Below are positions 1 through 6,668 of a stretch of 37,143 bases of DNA, one piece after another. The position numbers and the translations under genes are program-made. Below the pieces are notes generated by a model. That model ran no database searches, was not told the origin of the DNA, and worked only from the letters and a program-made list of their open reading frames with translations. The stretch is from Acidimicrobiales bacterium (GTDB lineage: Bacteria; Actinomycetota; Acidimicrobiia; Acidimicrobiales; Iamiaceae): the NCBI GenBank assembly GCA_025463365.1, contig JAOBWM010000182.1, positions 1 to 37,143 of the forward strand, written 5' to 3'. The stretch's first letter is position 1, and each line of letters opens with the position of its first letter.

Positions 1-3000
1 CACGCCCAGCACCTCGACGAGCCCGTCCACGCCTCGGCGCGCCAGGCCGACGCCCTGCCACGCGGGGAGGAAGCGCCCGAGCGCGGCCCCGTCGACGGGC
101 TCGACCTCGGCCCGCAGCACAGCCAGTGACCGGCGGCGGAGCTGGCGCAGCACCTCGGGATCGCACCACTCGCGGGTGGACCCGCCGGGCCGGAACTCGC
201 CCTGGATCAGGGTGCCGGTGGCGAGCATGGCGTCGAGGACCACCCGCGCCTGGCCCGCCTCGATCCCGAACCGGGCCGCGGCCTCCCGGGTGAGGAACGG
301 CCCATGGGTCTTCGCGTAGCGGAGCAGCAGCCCGTCGAGCGGTGCGTCGACCGAATCGGTGAACACGCCGGGGAGCCCGACCGGGATCGCACAGCCGAGC
401 GCGTCCCGCAAGCGGCCGGCGTCGTCAGACGCCGCCCAGCGCTCCTCGCCGGCGATGCCCACCGTGATGATCCGCCGATCGTCCGCCAGCGATCCGAGCA
501 GCGCGGGCAGGTTCGTGGCGGCGACGTCCGTGCACCGGGCCGCGAGCTCCTCGGTCGTCAGCGGACCGAGGACCCGCAAGAGGTCGTGCACCTCGTCGCC
601 GTCGCGGGCCTGGCGGCCGGGCACGAGCCGTTGCAGCTCGGCCTCCAGGTCGGCCAGCACCTGGGCGTCCAGGAGGTCGCGCAGCTCCTCGGCACCGAGC
701 AGCTCCCGCAGCAGGTCCCGGTCCAGGGCGAGGGCGGCGGCGCGGCGCTCGGCGAGCGGCGCGTCGCCCTCGTACATGTAGACGGCGACCCAGCCGAACA
801 ACAATGACCCGGCCATCGGCGAGGCCTGCGGGGTGTCGACGGAGACCAGGCGCACCTTGCGCGAGCGCAGATCCCGCAGGAGTCCCCGCAGCGCCGGCAG
901 GTCGAACACGTCGTTGCAGCACTCCCGAGTGGCCTCCAGCAGGATCGGGAAGGTGGGGTGCTTGGCGGCCACCGCGAGCAGGTCGGCCGCCTTCTGCCGC
1001 TGCTGCCACAGGGGGGTGCGGCGATCCGGTCGCCGGCGCGGGAGCAGCAGGGCGCGCGCCGCCGCTTCACGGAAGCGCGACGCGAACAGCGCGGTGCCGG
1101 GGAGGATCCCGATGATGATCTCGTCGATCTCGTCGGGGTCGATCAGCAGCTCGTCGGTGGGGAACTCATCGATGGCCTCGGGCAGGCGGAGCACGATCCC
1201 GTCGTCGCTCCACATCAGCTCCACGTCGATCCCCCACCGGTCGGCCAGGCGGGAGCGCAGCGCCATCGCCCACGGGGCATGGACCTGGGCACCGAAGGGG
1301 CTGAGCACGCAGACCCGCCAGTCGCCGATCTCGTCGCGGAACCGCTCCACCACGATCGTGCGATCGTCGGGTACCGCCCCGGTGGCCTCGGCCTGTTCGC
1401 GGAGGTAGCCGAGCAGGTTCTCGGCCGCCCACGCATCGAGGTCGTGGCGCTCGGCGAGGCGGGTCATGGCCTCGCCGGTGGGCAGCGCCCGGATCTCGCG
1501 CACGAACTCGCCGAGGGCGGCGCCCAGCTCGAGGGGGCGTCCCGGCCCGTCCCCGTGCCAGAACGGCATCTTCCCGGGCTGGCCCGGCGCGGGGGTCACG
1601 ACCACGCGCTCGTGGGTGATGTCCTCGATCCGCCACGTGGACGCGCCCAGCAGGAACGTCTCGCCGGGTCGCGACTCGTAGACCATCTCCTCGTCGAGCT
1701 CGCCGACCCGGGTGCCGTCGGGCAGGAACACCCCGTACAGGCCGCGGTCGGGGATGGTGCCGCCGGAGGTCACGGCTAGCCGTTGGGCACCCGCGCGGCC
1801 GCGCAGGGTGCCATCGGCGCGGTCCCACACGATCCGGGGGCGGAGCTCGGCGAACTCGTCTGACGGGTACCGGCCGGCGAGGAGGTCGAGCACCGCCTCC
1901 CACACCTCCTGGCTCAGCTCGGCGAACGGCGCCGACCGCCGGACCATGGCCGCCAGGTCCTCCACGTCGCGCTCATCGAGGGCACATGCCGCGACCACCT
2001 GCTGGGCGAGCACGTCGAGCGGATTGCGCGGGTAGCGGGTGTGCTCGATCAGCCCGTCGTGCATGCGCTGGGTCACGACCGCCGCCTCGACCAGGTCGGC
2101 CCGGTGCTTGGGGAACAGCTTCCCCCGGCTGGGCTCGCCGACCTGGTGACCGGCCCGACCGATGCGCTGCAACCCCCGCGAGACGGCGCCCGGGGACTCG
2201 ACCTGGATCACGAGGTCGACGGCGCCCATGTCGATGCCGAGCTCCAGCGACGAGGTGGCCACCAGGCCACGCAGCTGCCCGGACTTCAACTGGTCCTCGA
2301 TGATGAGACGCCGCTCCCGGGACAACGACCCGTGGTGCGCCTTCACGAGCTCGACGTCCACCGGCGGCATCCCGATGGCCTCGGCGCCGACGAAGCGCGC
2401 CGGGTCGCCGCCGCCCGGCCCCGATGCGACGGCACCGACGACCTCGGCCGCCTGTTCCGCGGCGAGCTCGTTGAGCCGAGTGGCCAACCGCTCGGCCAGC
2501 CGACGGGCGTTCACGAAGATCAATGTCGTCCGGTGCTCCAGCACGAGCTCGAGCAGGCGCGGGTGCATCGCCGGCCAGACCGAACGGCGCACCGGACCGC
2601 CCGCCGCCGCGCCCTCGACCGGGGCATCGATCACCGTGCCGAGGGCCCCGAGGTCTTCGACGGGAACGACGACCTCGATGTCGAGCTCCTTGCGCATCCC
2701 GGCGTCGATGACCGTGACCGGGCGTCGGACCGCCGGCGCGCCCGGGGTCACCGGGGTGTCGAACCCGCCGAGGAAGGTGGCGATCTCCTCCAGCGGGCGC
2801 TGGGTGGCCGAGAGGCCGATGCGCTGAGGCGGCCGCTCGCACCGCTCGGCCAGCCGCTCGAGGGTGAGGGCCAGGTGCGAGCCGCGCTTGGTGGCGGCGA
2901 GGGCGTGGATCTCGTCGACGATCACCGCTTCGACGTTCACGAGCGTCTCCCGCGCCGCCGAGGTGAGCATCAGGTACAGCGACTCCGGCGTGGTGATGAG

Positions 3001-3411
3001 CAGGTCTGGCGGGTTGCGCACGAGCTTCCGGCGCTCGTCGGCCGGCGTGTCGCCGGTGCGCATCCCGACGGTCGGGGCGTGGACGTCGGTCCCGAGGCGG
3101 TGCGCGGCGTGGGTGATCCCCGTGAGCGGCGAGCGCAGGTTCTTCTCGACATCGACGGCGAGGGCGCGCAGCGGCGAGATGTAGAGCAGGCGGGTGCGAG
3201 CAATCCCGTCCGGTGGTGGCGTGGTGAGCAGCCGATCGATGCCCCACAAGAACGCGGTGAGGGTCTTGCCCGACCCGGTCGGGGCGAGGATCAGCGTGTG
3301 ATCGCCGGCGGCGATGGCCGGCCACCCGAGGTCCTGGGCCCGCGTCGGCGCGGGGAAGGACGACTCGAACCAGGCCCGGACGGGCTCGGAGAAGAGGTCG
3401 AGCGAGGTGAT
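1..3411 (-). CDS. lhr: Lhr-type ATP-dependent superfamily 2 helicase (C-terminus beyond window)
   Basis: Lhr helicases are 3'-5' ATP-dependent DNA/RNA:DNA translocases linked to DNA repair. About 1137 residues are visible and the frame stays open to base 1; actinobacterial Lhr is usually near 1500 residues, so a few hundred C-terminal residues are missing. Seen in order: an N-terminus reading LDLFSEPVRAWFE, Walker A PTGSGKT (Lys about 49), Walker B DEIH (Asp about 166), motif III SAT, the second RecA lobe with SSLELGIDMG and QRIGRAGHQ, then the winged-helix and beta-barrel region typical of the Lhr core. An in-frame TAG at 3421-3423 precedes the frame, and no ATG, GTG, TTG or CTG occurs between it and the Walker A region. 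The best placed initiator is ATC at 3409-3411, 6 nt after a TAGGCT hexamer. The family call is firm; the start is not. Confidence 0.9.
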   Translation of the reverse strand, partial: MTSLDLFSEPVRAWFESSFPAPTRAQDLGWPAIAAGDHTLILAPTGSGKTLTAFLWGIDRLLTTPPPDGIARTRLLYISPLRALAVDVEKNLRSPLTGITHAAHRLGTDVHAPTVGMRTGDTPADERRKLVRNPPDLLITTPESLYLMLTSAARETLVNVEAVIVDEIHALAATKRGSHLALTLERLAERCERPPQRIGLSATQRPLEEIATFLGGFDTPVTPGAPAVRRPVTVIDAGMRKELDIEVVVPVEDLGALGTVIDAPVEGAAAGGPVRRSVWPAMHPRLLELVLEHRTTLIFVNARRLAERLATRLNELAAEQAAEVVGAVASGPGGGDPARFVGAEAIGMPPVDVELVKAHHGSLSRERRLIIEDQLKSGQLRGLVATSSLELGIDMGAVDLVIQVESPGAVSRGLQRIGRAGHQVGEPSRGKLFPKHRADLVEAAVVTQRMHDGLIEHTRYPRNPLDVLAQQVVAACALDERDVEDLAAMVRRSAPFAELSQEVWEAVLDLLAGRYPSDEFAELRPRIVWDRADGTLRGRAGAQRLAVTSGGTIPDRGLYGVFLPDGTRVGELDEEMVYESRPGETFLLGASTWRIEDITHERVVVTPAPGQPGKMPFWHGDGPGRPLELGAALGEFVREIRALPTGEAMTRLAERHDLDAWAAENLLGYLREQAEATGAVPDDRTIVVERFRDEIGDWRVCVLSPFGAQVHAPWAMALRSRLADRWGIDVELMWSDDGIVLRLPEAIDEFPTDELLIDPDEIDEIIIGILPGTALFASRFREAAARALLLPRRRPDRRTPLWQQRQKAADLLAVAAKHPTFPILLEATRECCNDVFDLPALRGLLRDLRSRKVRLVSVDTPQASPMAGSLLFGWVAVYMYEGDAPLAERRAAALALDRDLLRELLGAEELRDLLDAQVLADLEAELQRLVPGRQARDGDEVHDLLRVLGPLTTEELAARCTDVAATNLPALLGSLADDRRIITVGIAGEERWAASDDAGRLRDALGCAIPVGLPGVFTDSVDAPLDGLLLRYAKTHGPFLTREAAARFGIEAGQARVVLDAMLATGTLIQGEFRPGGSTREWCDPEVLRQLRRRSLAVLRAEVEPVDGAALGRFLPAWQGVGLARRGVDGLVEVLGV

Positions 3412-3417
3412 CGCCGC

Positions 3418-3423
3418 AGCCTA
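3418..3423 (-). promoter_or_regulatory. -10-like hexamer TAGGCT before lhr
   Basis: TAGGCT (TAnnnT) ends exactly 6 nt before the ATC proposed as the lhr start, the same geometry seen in front of many genes in this window. It overlaps the in-frame TAG stop. Inference: a leaderless promoter giving lhr its own transcript 3' of the upstream lipoprotein gene. Confidence 0.4.
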
Positions 3424-3433
3424 CGGAGGGGCT

Positions 3434-4099
3434 TCAGCCTCCGGTGCTGAGCTTGCAGGTCGTGTCGACGGCCTGCAGCTTCGCCTGGAGCGGGTTGGTA
3501 CCGCCGCTGTCCGCACCGATCAGGGAGGCGACGAGCAGGCTGCGCGCCGTCGCCTGGTCGATGTTCGCCTTCACGCACGCCGCCTTGTCGGGGGTGAGGC
3601 CGACGCTGATCGCCGTCAGGAACAGCGAGTAGATGTCGGCGCCACACGTGTCGAACGCGGTGATCATCTTCGTCCCCTGGGGTTCCGCGAGCCCGAGGTC
3701 GGCGTAGGAGTAGCTGTTGTCCTTGAGCGCCTGCGGGTCGACCTTCTTGGCCTTGAGCGTGGCGACCGTGATGGCGTCGATCCACTTTGGCGCCACGCAC
3801 GTCGCCTCATCCTTGGTGAGCACCAGGTCGCCGTCGGCGTTCTTGCCGTTGGTGAAACCGGCCGCGAGGTTCGAGGTGTAGTCCGCTGCGGTCGCATCGA
3901 GGTACGCCTTCGACCCGCCCGGGGCCGTCGTCGTGGTTGCATCGATGGGGCCCGACGAGGTGGTCGTGGTGTCCCCGGAGCCCTTGGTGGTCGTGCCGGA
4001 CTTGGTGCCCTTGGCCGCGCCGCCGCTGTCGCTCGAGCTGCACGCCGCGACTCCCAAGACCACGAGCACGGCGCACATCAGCAATCGGACCTTGGACAT
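3434..4099 (-). CDS. Predicted lipoprotein with an internal duplication, function unknown
   Basis: This is a 221-residue predicted secreted lipoprotein of unrecognised family. It has a basic/hydrophobic leader ending in a VAAC lipobox, then a long Ser/Thr/Gly spacer (residues about 20-65), then a Cys-containing globular region. The ATG at 4099 is chosen over an upstream one (4153) because GAGGGAGG lies about 10 nt before it and the lipobox is then correctly placed. The globular part looks like two tandem copies: each has a T-x-D-x-A-x-C-V segment followed by a helix, and each ends in a TC pair (DTC, TTC), giving four Cys that could form two disulfides. It follows efeB on the same strand after an 82-bp gap, so a role in iron uptake is possible but nothing in the sequence shows it. 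Confidence 0.8.
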   Translation of the reverse strand: MSKVRLLMCAVLVVLGVAACSSSDSGGAAKGTKSGTTTKGSGDTTTTSSGPIDATTTTAPGGSKAYLDATAADYTSNLAAGFTNGKNADGDLVLTKDEATCVAPKWIDAITVATLKAKKVDPQALKDNSYSYADLGLAEPQGTKMITAFDTCGADIYSLFLTAISVGLTPDKAACVKANIDQATARSLLVASLIGADSGGTNPLQAKLQAVDTTCKLSTGG

Positions 4100-4181
4100 C
4101 TGGGCGAGCCCTCCCTCGGCGAACGTCCGCTCGACCGTAGTGCGGGGCACCACCGAGCCCGACCTCGGGCCAGGACCCGGG

Positions 4182-5429
4182 TCAGAAGAGCTTGTCCTTC
4201 CAGGTCTCGCCCTTGGCCAGTCCGCCGGGGCAGGCGTAGATGCCGGACGCGATGTGGCGGATGTACTCGTTGAGCCCGTCGGTGGCCAGGTTCTGCTGGA
4301 TCTTGACGAAGTGGGCGGGATCGTTCATGTAGGCCAGGAAGAACAGGCCGGCCTGCAGGTTCCCCTGCGCCTGGTCGACCCCGTCGGTGTAGTTGTAGCC
4401 ACGCCGGAGCAACTTGGTGCCGCCGTTGGCCTCGGGGCTGGCCAGGCGCACGTGGGCGTCGGCCGGGATGACGAGCGCGCCGTCGTCGCGCGTGGCCTTC
4501 AGGTCGAGCGGTGCGAACTCCGATGCCTCGCCGAGCGGGGCACCCGTGTCCTTGACCCGGCCGATCACGTTCTGCTGATCACCGAGGGAGTCGTGGTCCC
4601 AGTTCTCGATGAACATGGCGATCTTTCGGGCCACGAGGAACGACCCGCCGCGCATCCACGCGGGATCGGCGTCCTGGTCGACCCAGACGAAGGCGTCGAC
4701 CTCGGATCGCTCCTCGGACTTCAGGTTGTTGGTGCCGTCCTTGAACCCGAGCAGGTTGCGAGCGGTGGCCTGGCTGGTGCTGGTGGACGACGTGCGGCCG
4801 AACCCGAACTGCATCCAGCGATGGGTGGTGGTGCCGATCCCGGCCCGGACGAGGTCGCGCACGGCGTGATACGCCACGAGCGGGTCGTCGGCGCAGGCCT
4901 GGATGCAGATGTCCCCGTCGGAGATGGCCGGGCGCAACGTCTCGTTGGGCAGTGGCGGCAGCGCGTGCAACCGCTCCGGCTTCTTGGCGGCCAGGCCGAA
5001 GCGGTCATCGAACAATGACGGGCCGAAGCCGATCGTGATCGTGAGACGCGAGGCGGGGAGCCCGTAGGCCTCACCGGTGTCGGCCGGGGACCCGAGCAGG
5101 TCCCCCTGGTTGCCGGGGACGAGGTCGCCGTTGGTCATGGCCTCGGCCATGGCGGTCCAGGTCTCCAAGAGGTGGGCCAGTGCTGCCGGGTCGTCGGTGA
5201 CAACGTCGAGCGCCGAGAACACCAGCCGGTCCTGGGTCGCCGTCGTGATGCCGGCCTGGTGGCGGCCCCGGAACGCGATCACCTCCGAACCGGCGGTGGC
5301 GGTCTTGGTCGAAGACGACGCGGCGTCGTCGCCTCCGCCGCAGGCCGCGAGTCCCGTCGTCGCCAACGCGGCACCGGCGCCGGTGGCGCCGATCCCGCCC
5401 AAGAAGCGGCGACGGGACACGCGGGTCAT
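4182..5429 (-). CDS. efeB: Dyp-type heme peroxidase EfeB, Tat-exported
   Basis: EfeB is the periplasmic/extracytoplasmic heme peroxidase of the EfeUOB ferrous iron uptake system. The 415-residue protein opens with a twin-arginine signal (VSRRRFLGG) and a hydrophobic stretch ending LAAC, so it may also be lipid-anchored. The DyP signature GFKDG is present (Asp231, the peroxide-cleaving acid), and the IPADAHVRLASP segment carries the expected proximal heme ligand, His326. The ATG at 5429 overlaps the efeO stop by one base (TGATG), so translation is probably coupled. A longer frame exists to 5549 but lies inside efeO and lacks the Tat signal at its end. Gene order U-O-B matches the canonical operon. 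Confidence 0.95.
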   Translation of the reverse strand: MTRVSRRRFLGGIGATGAGAALATTGLAACGGGDDAASSSTKTATAGSEVIAFRGRHQAGITTATQDRLVFSALDVVTDDPAALAHLLETWTAMAEAMTNGDLVPGNQGDLLGSPADTGEAYGLPASRLTITIGFGPSLFDDRFGLAAKKPERLHALPPLPNETLRPAISDGDICIQACADDPLVAYHAVRDLVRAGIGTTTHRWMQFGFGRTSSTSTSQATARNLLGFKDGTNNLKSEERSEVDAFVWVDQDADPAWMRGGSFLVARKIAMFIENWDHDSLGDQQNVIGRVKDTGAPLGEASEFAPLDLKATRDDGALVIPADAHVRLASPEANGGTKLLRRGYNYTDGVDQAQGNLQAGLFFLAYMNDPAHFVKIQQNLATDGLNEYIRHIASGIYACPGGLAKGETWKDKLF

Positions 5430-6628
5430 CAGACGACGACCTTCACGGGCACCTCGGAGAGGTACTCGGTGAGCGGCTTCACGACGTCGGAGAGCGCACG
5501 GCGCTGGGCGTCGGTGATGGTGGACGCCGGATCCTCGGCGTACCCCCACTCCTTGAACCCGGTGCCGGCATATCCGGGATCCTCCTTGTAGGCGTCGAGC
5601 GCCTTCTGGACCTTGGCCGCCTGGCCGTCGATCTCCTCGAGGAGGTCGGGGGCCGACTTCTCGAGCGCCGGGCGCACCAACTCGATCGACTTCAGGGAAC
5701 CGTCGAGGTTGGCCTGGACGTCGAGCAGGTCGGTGTGGGAGTAGCGCTCCTCCTCACCGGTGATCTTGCCGACCATGACCTCGTTCATCAGCTCGGTGGC
5801 ACCGTTGGTGACCTCCTCGGGCACGTAGGTGCCGGACTTCTTCCCCACCAGCCCCTGCAGCTCGACGATGTCCTTGTCGAGCTGATCGGCCACCGGGCCC
5901 ATGCCCGCGAGCGACTTCTCGACCCACAGGGCGTATTCGAGGCGGTGGAAGCCCGTGAGCTCGGTGGGCTCGGTGCCGTCGTCGGCGCGGCCGTCGATCT
6001 TGGGGTCGAGCGCACCGAAGGACTCGGCCACCGGCTCGATGCGCTCGTAGGGCACGCGCGCCAGCGCGTAGGTGTCCTTGGCCTTGTCGATGTCGCCGGC
6101 GCGGACGGCATCGGTGAACGTGGTGGTGGCCTTGGCCAGCTCCACCGTCTGCTCGTCGACGTAGGCCGAGTACCGCTTCACCGCGGTGACGAGCAGCGGA
6201 TTGTCGTTCCAGTCCTTCACCGCCTTGCCCTTCGACACCGTGAAGTCCCACGTGTCCTGCTTGGCGCCGGGGCAGAACATCTTGTACTTGCCCTCGCGGA
6301 GGTTGAGCTTGAACGAGACCGACAAGCCGTCGGTGATGTTCTCCTTCTCGCCGAGGATGTTCTTGCCATCGGCGGTCTTGAGCTCGGCTTCGGTGGCCTT
6401 GGACGAGCCGTTGTTGGTGATGGCGAAGGTGATCTCGCCGGACTTCGCCGTCGCCGGCTTGGGCGCGCACCCGGCGTCGGTGATCTCCACCTTGATGGCC
6501 CCCTTCGCGCTGGGGACGTCGTCGGACTTGGCGCATGACGTGGCCAGCAGGCCGATGCCCGCGACGAGCAGCAGCCCCGCGATGGCGCGGTGTCGGGGCC
6601 GACGGGAGCGAGCGTGGACGTTGTTCAC
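5429..6628 (-). CDS. efeO: Iron uptake lipoprotein EfeO (cupredoxin plus M75-like domain)
   Basis: EfeO is the extracytoplasmic iron-binding component that works with permease EfeU and peroxidase EfeB. The protein has a hydrophobic leader with a probable lipobox (ATSC), an N-terminal cupredoxin-like domain (residues about 35-130, with MFCPG near its end), and a helical M75/imelysin-like domain carrying the HxxE metal motif as HRLE. An ATG at 6652 would add eight residues but has no ribosome site. The GTG at 6626-6628 has AAGGAG at 6635-6640, six bases upstream, and is preferred. The gene follows efeU by about 40 bp and overlaps efeB by one base. Confidence 0.94.
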   Translation of the reverse strand: MNNVHARSRRPRHRAIAGLLLVAGIGLLATSCAKSDDVPSAKGAIKVEITDAGCAPKPATAKSGEITFAITNNGSSKATEAELKTADGKNILGEKENITDGLSVSFKLNLREGKYKMFCPGAKQDTWDFTVSKGKAVKDWNDNPLLVTAVKRYSAYVDEQTVELAKATTTFTDAVRAGDIDKAKDTYALARVPYERIEPVAESFGALDPKIDGRADDGTEPTELTGFHRLEYALWVEKSLAGMGPVADQLDKDIVELQGLVGKKSGTYVPEEVTNGATELMNEVMVGKITGEEERYSHTDLLDVQANLDGSLKSIELVRPALEKSAPDLLEEIDGQAAKVQKALDAYKEDPGYAGTGFKEWGYAEDPASTITDAQRRALSDVVKPLTEYLSEVPVKVVV

Positions 6629-6668
6629 CAAGGTCTCCTTGCGGTCGTGCATCGGAAGCTGCGAGCGG

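Follow-up and report, generated by a model that had tools for sequence, protein, structure and literature searches.

The closest described systems to the locus analysed here are the leaderless mRNAs of Actinobacteria, in which the -10 element lies just before the start codon and there is neither a leader nor a Shine-Dalgarno sequence (PMC4633059). The leaderless genes of mycobacteria need ATG or GTG: among 5'-end reporters in Mycobacterium smegmatis only these two codons were active, comprising all but 547 of 343,242 reads, and a leaderless ATC served as a negative control (PMC4633059). In mycobacteria lhr-nei2 is reported to be induced via PafBC (PMC11323726), whose motif has been given as TGTCGG, TGTCAG or TGTCAC followed by N10-TA-NNN-T (PMC8151990) and as tTGTCRgtg-8 nt-TannnT (PMC5656591). 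In Deinococcus-Thermus, leaderless genes have their -10 element some 6-7 bp ahead of the open reading frame (PMC12340547). A near-cognate AUU start is found in infC of Escherichia coli, which encodes IF3.

The lhr gene described here shares features with each of these systems and differs from each. It resembles actinobacterial leaderless genes in having a -10 element just before the start, with apparently no leader and no Shine-Dalgarno sequence, but fails the mycobacterial rule, as ATC occupies the start in 19 of 21 copies in the family. Like the mycobacterial PafBC and lhr-nei2 system (PMC11323726, PMC8151990, PMC5656591), most copies in the family have a motif of the TGTCAC-N10-TANNNT type in front of lhr, a putative target; M. 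smegmatis lhr, however, starts with ATG (PMC11323726, Figure 1 legend), whereas lhr here starts with ATC and its induction by damage is only inferred. The -10 spacing matches that of Deinococcus-Thermus, although the words ATC and AUC are absent from the main text of that study (PMC12340547). The likeness to infC is a conserved non-NTG start, since infC has ATA at the start position in 23/23 copies found in family f1 and the lhr start is non-NTG across related species. The family infC is nevertheless leadered, with a mini-ORF in 22/23 copies, whereas lhr encodes a helicase and appears to lack a leader and to start at AUC. A search of titles and abstracts in the open-licence literature, which included leaderless genes in Acidimicrobiia, found no report of a leaderless AUC start. 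Our preferred reading, which we consider likely, is that lhr mRNAs are leaderless and have AUC at their 5' end, where it is retained as a weak start codon. Both the 5' end and initiation at AUC are inferred, in the absence of RNA or protein data.

The window, meaning the whole 37,143-nucleotide stretch of DNA that was analysed, corresponds to one entire contig (G000:C204) in a 219-contig draft genome of 4.31 Mb that is 98.4% complete. The 5' part of lhr occupies positions 1-3411 on the minus strand and comprises 1137 codons before running off the contig end at base 1, as established from its translation and from Pfam, NCBIfam and PDB matches. Five Pfam domains score above cut-off in the product (PF00270, PF00271, PF19306, PF08494 and PF23236), which meets the criteria for an Lhr helicase, namely a DEAD/Helicase_C core together with winged-helix and DEAD_assoc domains. 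The top NCBIfam match, NF007284, falls below its cut-off; the gene is cut by the contig end. Alignments to PDB entries 7LHL and 5V9X both start at residue 5, and that to 7LHL spans residues 5-1135. On the minus strand an in-frame TAG (3423-3421) is followed by GCT GCG GCG ATC ACC TCG CTC GAC CTC TTC. The stop, which closes the frame three codons before ATC, belongs to the hexamer TAGGCT (3418-3423), a -10 element of the form TANNNT. A 6-nt spacer, GCGGCG (3412-3417), separates it from ATC (3409-3411), which we propose as both the start codon and the transcription start of a leaderless mRNA; relatives keep a spacer of 6 or 7 nt although its letters vary. The arrangement TAGGCT-N6-ATC meets our criterion for a leaderless -10 element, which is 6-8 nt before the start. 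The sequence-only reading had described the in-frame TAG, the codons after it, the spacing of TAGGCT and an Lhr-like protein from ATC onwards, all of which held. It had also stated that no ATG, GTG, TTG or CTG occurs before the Walker A region, which held only in part: ATG, GTG and TTG are absent between the in-frame TAG and Walker A, but one CTG is present (3294-3292), encoding the conserved Leu of TLILAPTGSGKT.

Comparison with close relatives, the check that had been proposed for the codon at this position, showed that the same triplet is conserved. Within the genus 11 of 12 genomes hold lhr, starting with ATC in ten and GTC in one, and in family f1 as a whole 21 of 24 genomes hold the gene, with 19 ATC, one GTC (G009) and one GTG (G015). 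The family ATC stands 6 nt, sometimes 7, after a TANNNT -10 element. For the rest of the order we compared 61 loci, comprising 23 returned outside f1 and 38 of 40 picked across families; L192 and L194 were dropped as copies from a second family, f6, where they are counted as L218 and L225, and the f6 copy L207 was kept. At the same place these loci have 34 GTG, 13 ATG and one TTG, with 13 not assigned by our rule, so that GTG or ATG is found in 47/48 assignable copies and TTG in 1/48. An error of sequencing or assembly, with ATG or GTG as the true codon, had been put forward as the alternative, and the window does come from a draft genome in 219 contigs. This explanation failed and is all but excluded, because ATC recurs in 19/21 family copies and in genomes assembled as single contigs (G002 and G013 in f1; G028, G153 and G322 in f6). 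The lhr gene of G009 (L006 / L019) has GTC behind TAAGGT-N6; this is seen in one draft genome only, and an error there remains possible.

The pattern of divergence places the start of the coding sequence at the same position. Eleven f1 copies, one of them that of the window, share the same spacing; across these, mean pairwise divergence upstream is 0.57-0.60 without codon rhythm, and the six spacer columns give 0.47, 0.62, 0.56, 0.47, 0.71 and 0.18. The columns of ATC itself diverge by 0.18/0/0, those of codon 2 by 0.44/0.55/0.51, and codons 2-40 by 0.17/0.10/0.42 according to codon position. Three-base periodicity is thus missing upstream and present after ATC, from which it follows that the coding sequence begins at or very near this triplet. 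The position of ATC tracks the promoter and not the protein: the -10 element is always 6 or 7 nt away, but anything from 3 to 25 codons separates ATC from the first Leu that is conserved in Lhr. Six lhr copies in the genus have open frames of 1470-1564 codons, the remaining copies being shorter. In the complete genome G002 (L167, G002:2436001-2456000) the frame ends 1132 codons from ATC and Lhr similarity resumes in another frame, and this gene is therefore broken or misassembled further on.

It remains conceivable that the transcript begins at ATC and translation starts elsewhere, for example at the Leu codon that follows after three or four codons, or at a GTG in a conserved helix. In favour of this view, codon 4 (CTN) of lhr is conserved, and ATG, GTG or TTG occurs downstream in 20 of the 35 non-canonical copies (those with ATC, ATT or GTC). 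More precisely, 24 of these copies have such a codon, downstream only in 16, upstream only in four and on both sides in four. Against it, the other 11, among them the window, contain no ATG, GTG or TTG from the upstream stop to Walker A. Many f6 copies have a GTG five codons past ATC, but this is a variable Val codon, replaced by GTA, GTC, GTT or GCT in other copies with ATC. No run of more than four letters of AAGGAGGT precedes any of the 35 non-canonical starts, and ATC occupies the place of ATG or GTG in other families. Taken as a whole we regard a different start codon as unlikely. TAGG was also considered as a Shine-Dalgarno sequence and was rejected: the inner letters of the -10 element vary (TAGCCT, TACGCT, TACGAT, TAGTCT), and runs of AAGGAGGT do not exceed four letters.

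Non-canonical starts are also represented in f6, for which we examined 30 of the 56 genomes with a strong lhr match, namely those whose loci were retrieved. These 30 copies have 14 ATC, one ATT, nine ATG and four GTG starts, with two unassigned. A phylogenetic tree of lhr (72 rows, excluding L013, L239 and the 38 short loci from the order; a quick method without bootstrap) separated f6 with an SH-aLRT of 100. Fourteen of the 15 non-canonical f6 copies fall on one branch (SH-aLRT 90), and support for all 15 together is 70. Family f1 does not resolve as one group. The tree requires at least six changes between canonical and non-canonical starts, and the counts do not resolve their direction, whether gain or loss. 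ATC probably arose separately in f1 and f6, although this is not proven.

The sequence-only reading had remarked that the spacing before ATC is that of ATG and GTG starts elsewhere in the window, and this held in the genome of the relative G002. With a simple ORF caller and TANNNT at 6-8 nt before the start, 1.2 Mb of this genome (980 ORFs) yielded 116 ATG, 72 GTG, no TTG and a single ATC, which is that of lhr. Control spacings gave 1.8 ATG and 7.5 GTG (9.3 in sum, against 188 observed). Likewise 0.4 Mb of G013 (308 ORFs) yielded 12 ATG, 26 GTG and one ATC, again lhr. These samples, in which lhr is the sole ATC, led us to reject AUC as a genome-wide habit. In f6, 0.4 Mb of G153 gave 43 ATG, 25 GTG, one TTG and one ATC that lies beside an ATG; this tally missed the ATC of lhr although stretch L369 holds the gene, so specificity for lhr is not shown in that family.

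A second gene with the same arrangement, encoding a PD-(D/E)XK nuclease (PF12705), has ATC at TANNNT-N6 in G002, G004 and G009, and GTG or ATG at this place in G000, G003, G007 and other relatives. Between the upstream stop and codon 48 the G002 copy contains no ATG, GTG or TTG, and in G009 none is found from the upstream stop until codon 37. In G004 a GTG is present at codon 11, and the other candidate starts lie at least 55 codons upstream. At 16 nt before the TA the promoter has TGTC in G002, G000 and G007 and GGTC in G004; G009 has no such element. The nuclease gene fell outside the G002 sample, and more AUC cases may therefore exist. The proposal of leaderless initiation at AUC is supported by the -10 spacing, by conservation in two families, by the lack of alternative starts in 11 of the 35 non-canonical copies and by this second gene in three genomes; it is an inference from sequence, with neither 5'-end nor N-terminal peptide data.

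The promoters of lhr were compared with the PafBC motif. TGTC stands exactly 16 nt before the TA in 12/21 family, 14/48 order and 1/28 f6 copies, and at most one mismatch to TGTCA is found in 17/21, 22/48 and 11/28, respectively (control means 0.10, 0.62 and 0.07). In the family promoters TGTC occurs at no other offset between -24 and -9. The corresponding site in the window (3435-3439, minus strand, 16 nt before the TA) has diverged to GGCTG, and this copy has lost the TGTCA half, unlike most in the family. Most family lhr copies, though not that of the window, carry a PafBC-like DNA-damage promoter motif; the motif match is observed, and induction by damage is inferred from it.

Across G000, G002 and G013 we found 76 PafBC-like sites (with GTA), against four for the reversed control, and these are likely to represent a damage regulon of f1. 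ATG or GTG follows at leaderless spacing in 54 of them. The 22 without RTG at a spacing of 6-8 include six with ATC (three recA, lhr, the nuclease and one leader) and 16 with neither. The window's own genome has 25 sites ending in RTS against no controls, including that of recA, which is leadered; behind some of these sites are ORFs that we take to be radA and UvrD-, SbcD- and RecC-like genes, and some have no long ORF behind them. Two of the 25 have ATC, one being the leadered recA promoter (L255) and the other (L262) having ATC and then an immediate stop. The ATG or GTG at 54/76 sites led us to reject the idea that ATC is the norm in the damage regulon. In L433 and L434 (G000:C155 and C218) a PafBC-like promoter has CGAACATACGTTCG or CGAACGTACGTTCG directly after the -10 element, which resembles an SOS box, and double control is possible there.

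A further explanation is that this class of promoter favours ATC as the first transcribed letters and that lhr merely tolerates a poor start. The recA leaders of six genus genomes start with ATCGGATCGCTGC or nearly so, ATC also opens one ssb-like and one gyrB-like leader behind promoters of this type, and it is found at six of the 22 PafBC-like sites without RTG, all of which favour this view. The ATG or GTG at 54/76 sites nevertheless means that the promoter does not need C at +3. In addition, 16/76 sites have neither ATC nor ATG or GTG, and lhr of other families keeps GTG or ATG, often behind the same motif. As a full account promoter preference appears unlikely; it could contribute in part to ATC but is not required. 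The recA leaders (L255, L397, L398, L400, L401, L407, L437) contain a conserved block, (A)TCGCTGC..., with GCAGCC after it in several copies, and a short hairpin near the transcript start is possible, although the sequences were not folded.

Two other routes to an AUC start depend on factors outside the promoter. In the first, ribosomes coming from the upstream gene would be able to start at AUC by re-initiation or coupling. The window does contain an upstream gene on the same strand as lhr (3434-4153, minus), whose stop ends 22 nt before ATC. This gene, for which no match was found in Pfam or NCBIfam, differs from the upstream gene in the relatives compared. Both the upstream gene and its distance vary among relatives, and in L009, L104 and L107 the nearest predicted one is on the opposite strand. 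Translational coupling was rejected as a general cause on the basis of this variation in gene, distance and strand, and we consider it very unlikely for lhr. Also on the minus strand of the window are a Dyp-type peroxidase matching TIGR01412, the deferrochelatase type that serves iron uptake, and an adjoining ORF that by appearance resembles its EfeO partner (4182-5549 and 5429-6652).

In the second route, AUC would be read by a dedicated initiator tRNA whose anticodon is GAU, for which we found no supporting evidence. A pattern for the initiator tRNA (GGG/CCC anticodon stem) was matched in 19/24 family genomes, and the anticodon is CAT in all matches but two. Both exceptions are in G005 and are not tRNAs according to ARAGORN. 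The window's own genome has one match, a tRNA-Met with CAT. The pattern would miss a GAU initiator with a different stem, but the existence of such a tRNA seems very improbable.

Under the preferred reading of a leaderless AUC start, lhr would be transcribed from its own promoter, which is of the PafBC type TGTCA-N11-TAnnnT in most family copies. Transcription would begin at the A of ATC, as inferred from the spacing, giving a leaderless mRNA with 5'-AUC. The ribosome would then initiate at AUC, presumably with the ordinary fMet-tRNA pairing at two of the three positions. AUC would be a weak near-cognate start under selection, the reason for which is inferred: most probably it would keep Lhr low and tie its synthesis to the state of initiation as set by IF3 and free 70S ribosomes, the purpose being a low dosage of Lhr or its release under stress. 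According to a review, leaderless translation is inhibited by an excess of IF3 and raised in infC mutants that are less strict about the codon (PMC9031893). On this basis a leaderless mRNA with AUC should be doubly sensitive to IF3.

A bolder version, towards which the evidence in our view leans only slightly, is that a 5' AUC is a working, selected leaderless start in Acidimicrobiia. It would probably have been gained three times (twice for lhr, in separate families, and once for the nuclease, within a single genus), always in genes whose promoter is of the DNA-damage type, and would throttle their translation in step with the state of IF3 and 70S ribosomes. If this is true, the requirement for AUG or GUG in leaderless actinobacterial mRNAs would no longer hold as a rule. 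The conflict with the reporter data (PMC4633059) implies either that Acidimicrobiia differ or that low activity suffices. Points that count against our main reading are the M. smegmatis negative control, the leadered genes with ATC, the lost TGTCA of the window, the frame break in G002, the upstream or downstream ATG, GTG or TTG in 24/35 non-canonical copies, and the possibility that the parallel with infC is one of coupling to a mini-ORF. A natural ATC kept across one family and part of a second nevertheless suggests that there are purposeful exceptions to the ATG/GTG rule, and lhr offers a clean system for studying how ribosomes select where to begin when an mRNA has no leader. Gene finders restricted to ATG, GTG and TTG will misplace the start of such genes or shorten them. 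Should the promoter reading be right, a crosslink-repair helicase would be under both translational and transcriptional control.

A near-cognate start is likely to be used elsewhere in these genomes, at infC. All 23 family copies found (L272-L294) have ATA at the start position, and of 12 further infC loci four were resolved by the pattern, all with ATA, and eight were unresolved. In 22/23 family copies a mini-ORF with an ATG, GTG or TTG start, mostly of six codons, ends in a TAG that overlaps the ATA. It is possible that stop-restart coupling through this mini-ORF operates at the infC AUA. The exception is L291, in which the context of the ATA differs and there is no mini-ORF. In the window's own genome (L283, C1:39502) the mini-ORF reads MKSHRP-stop.
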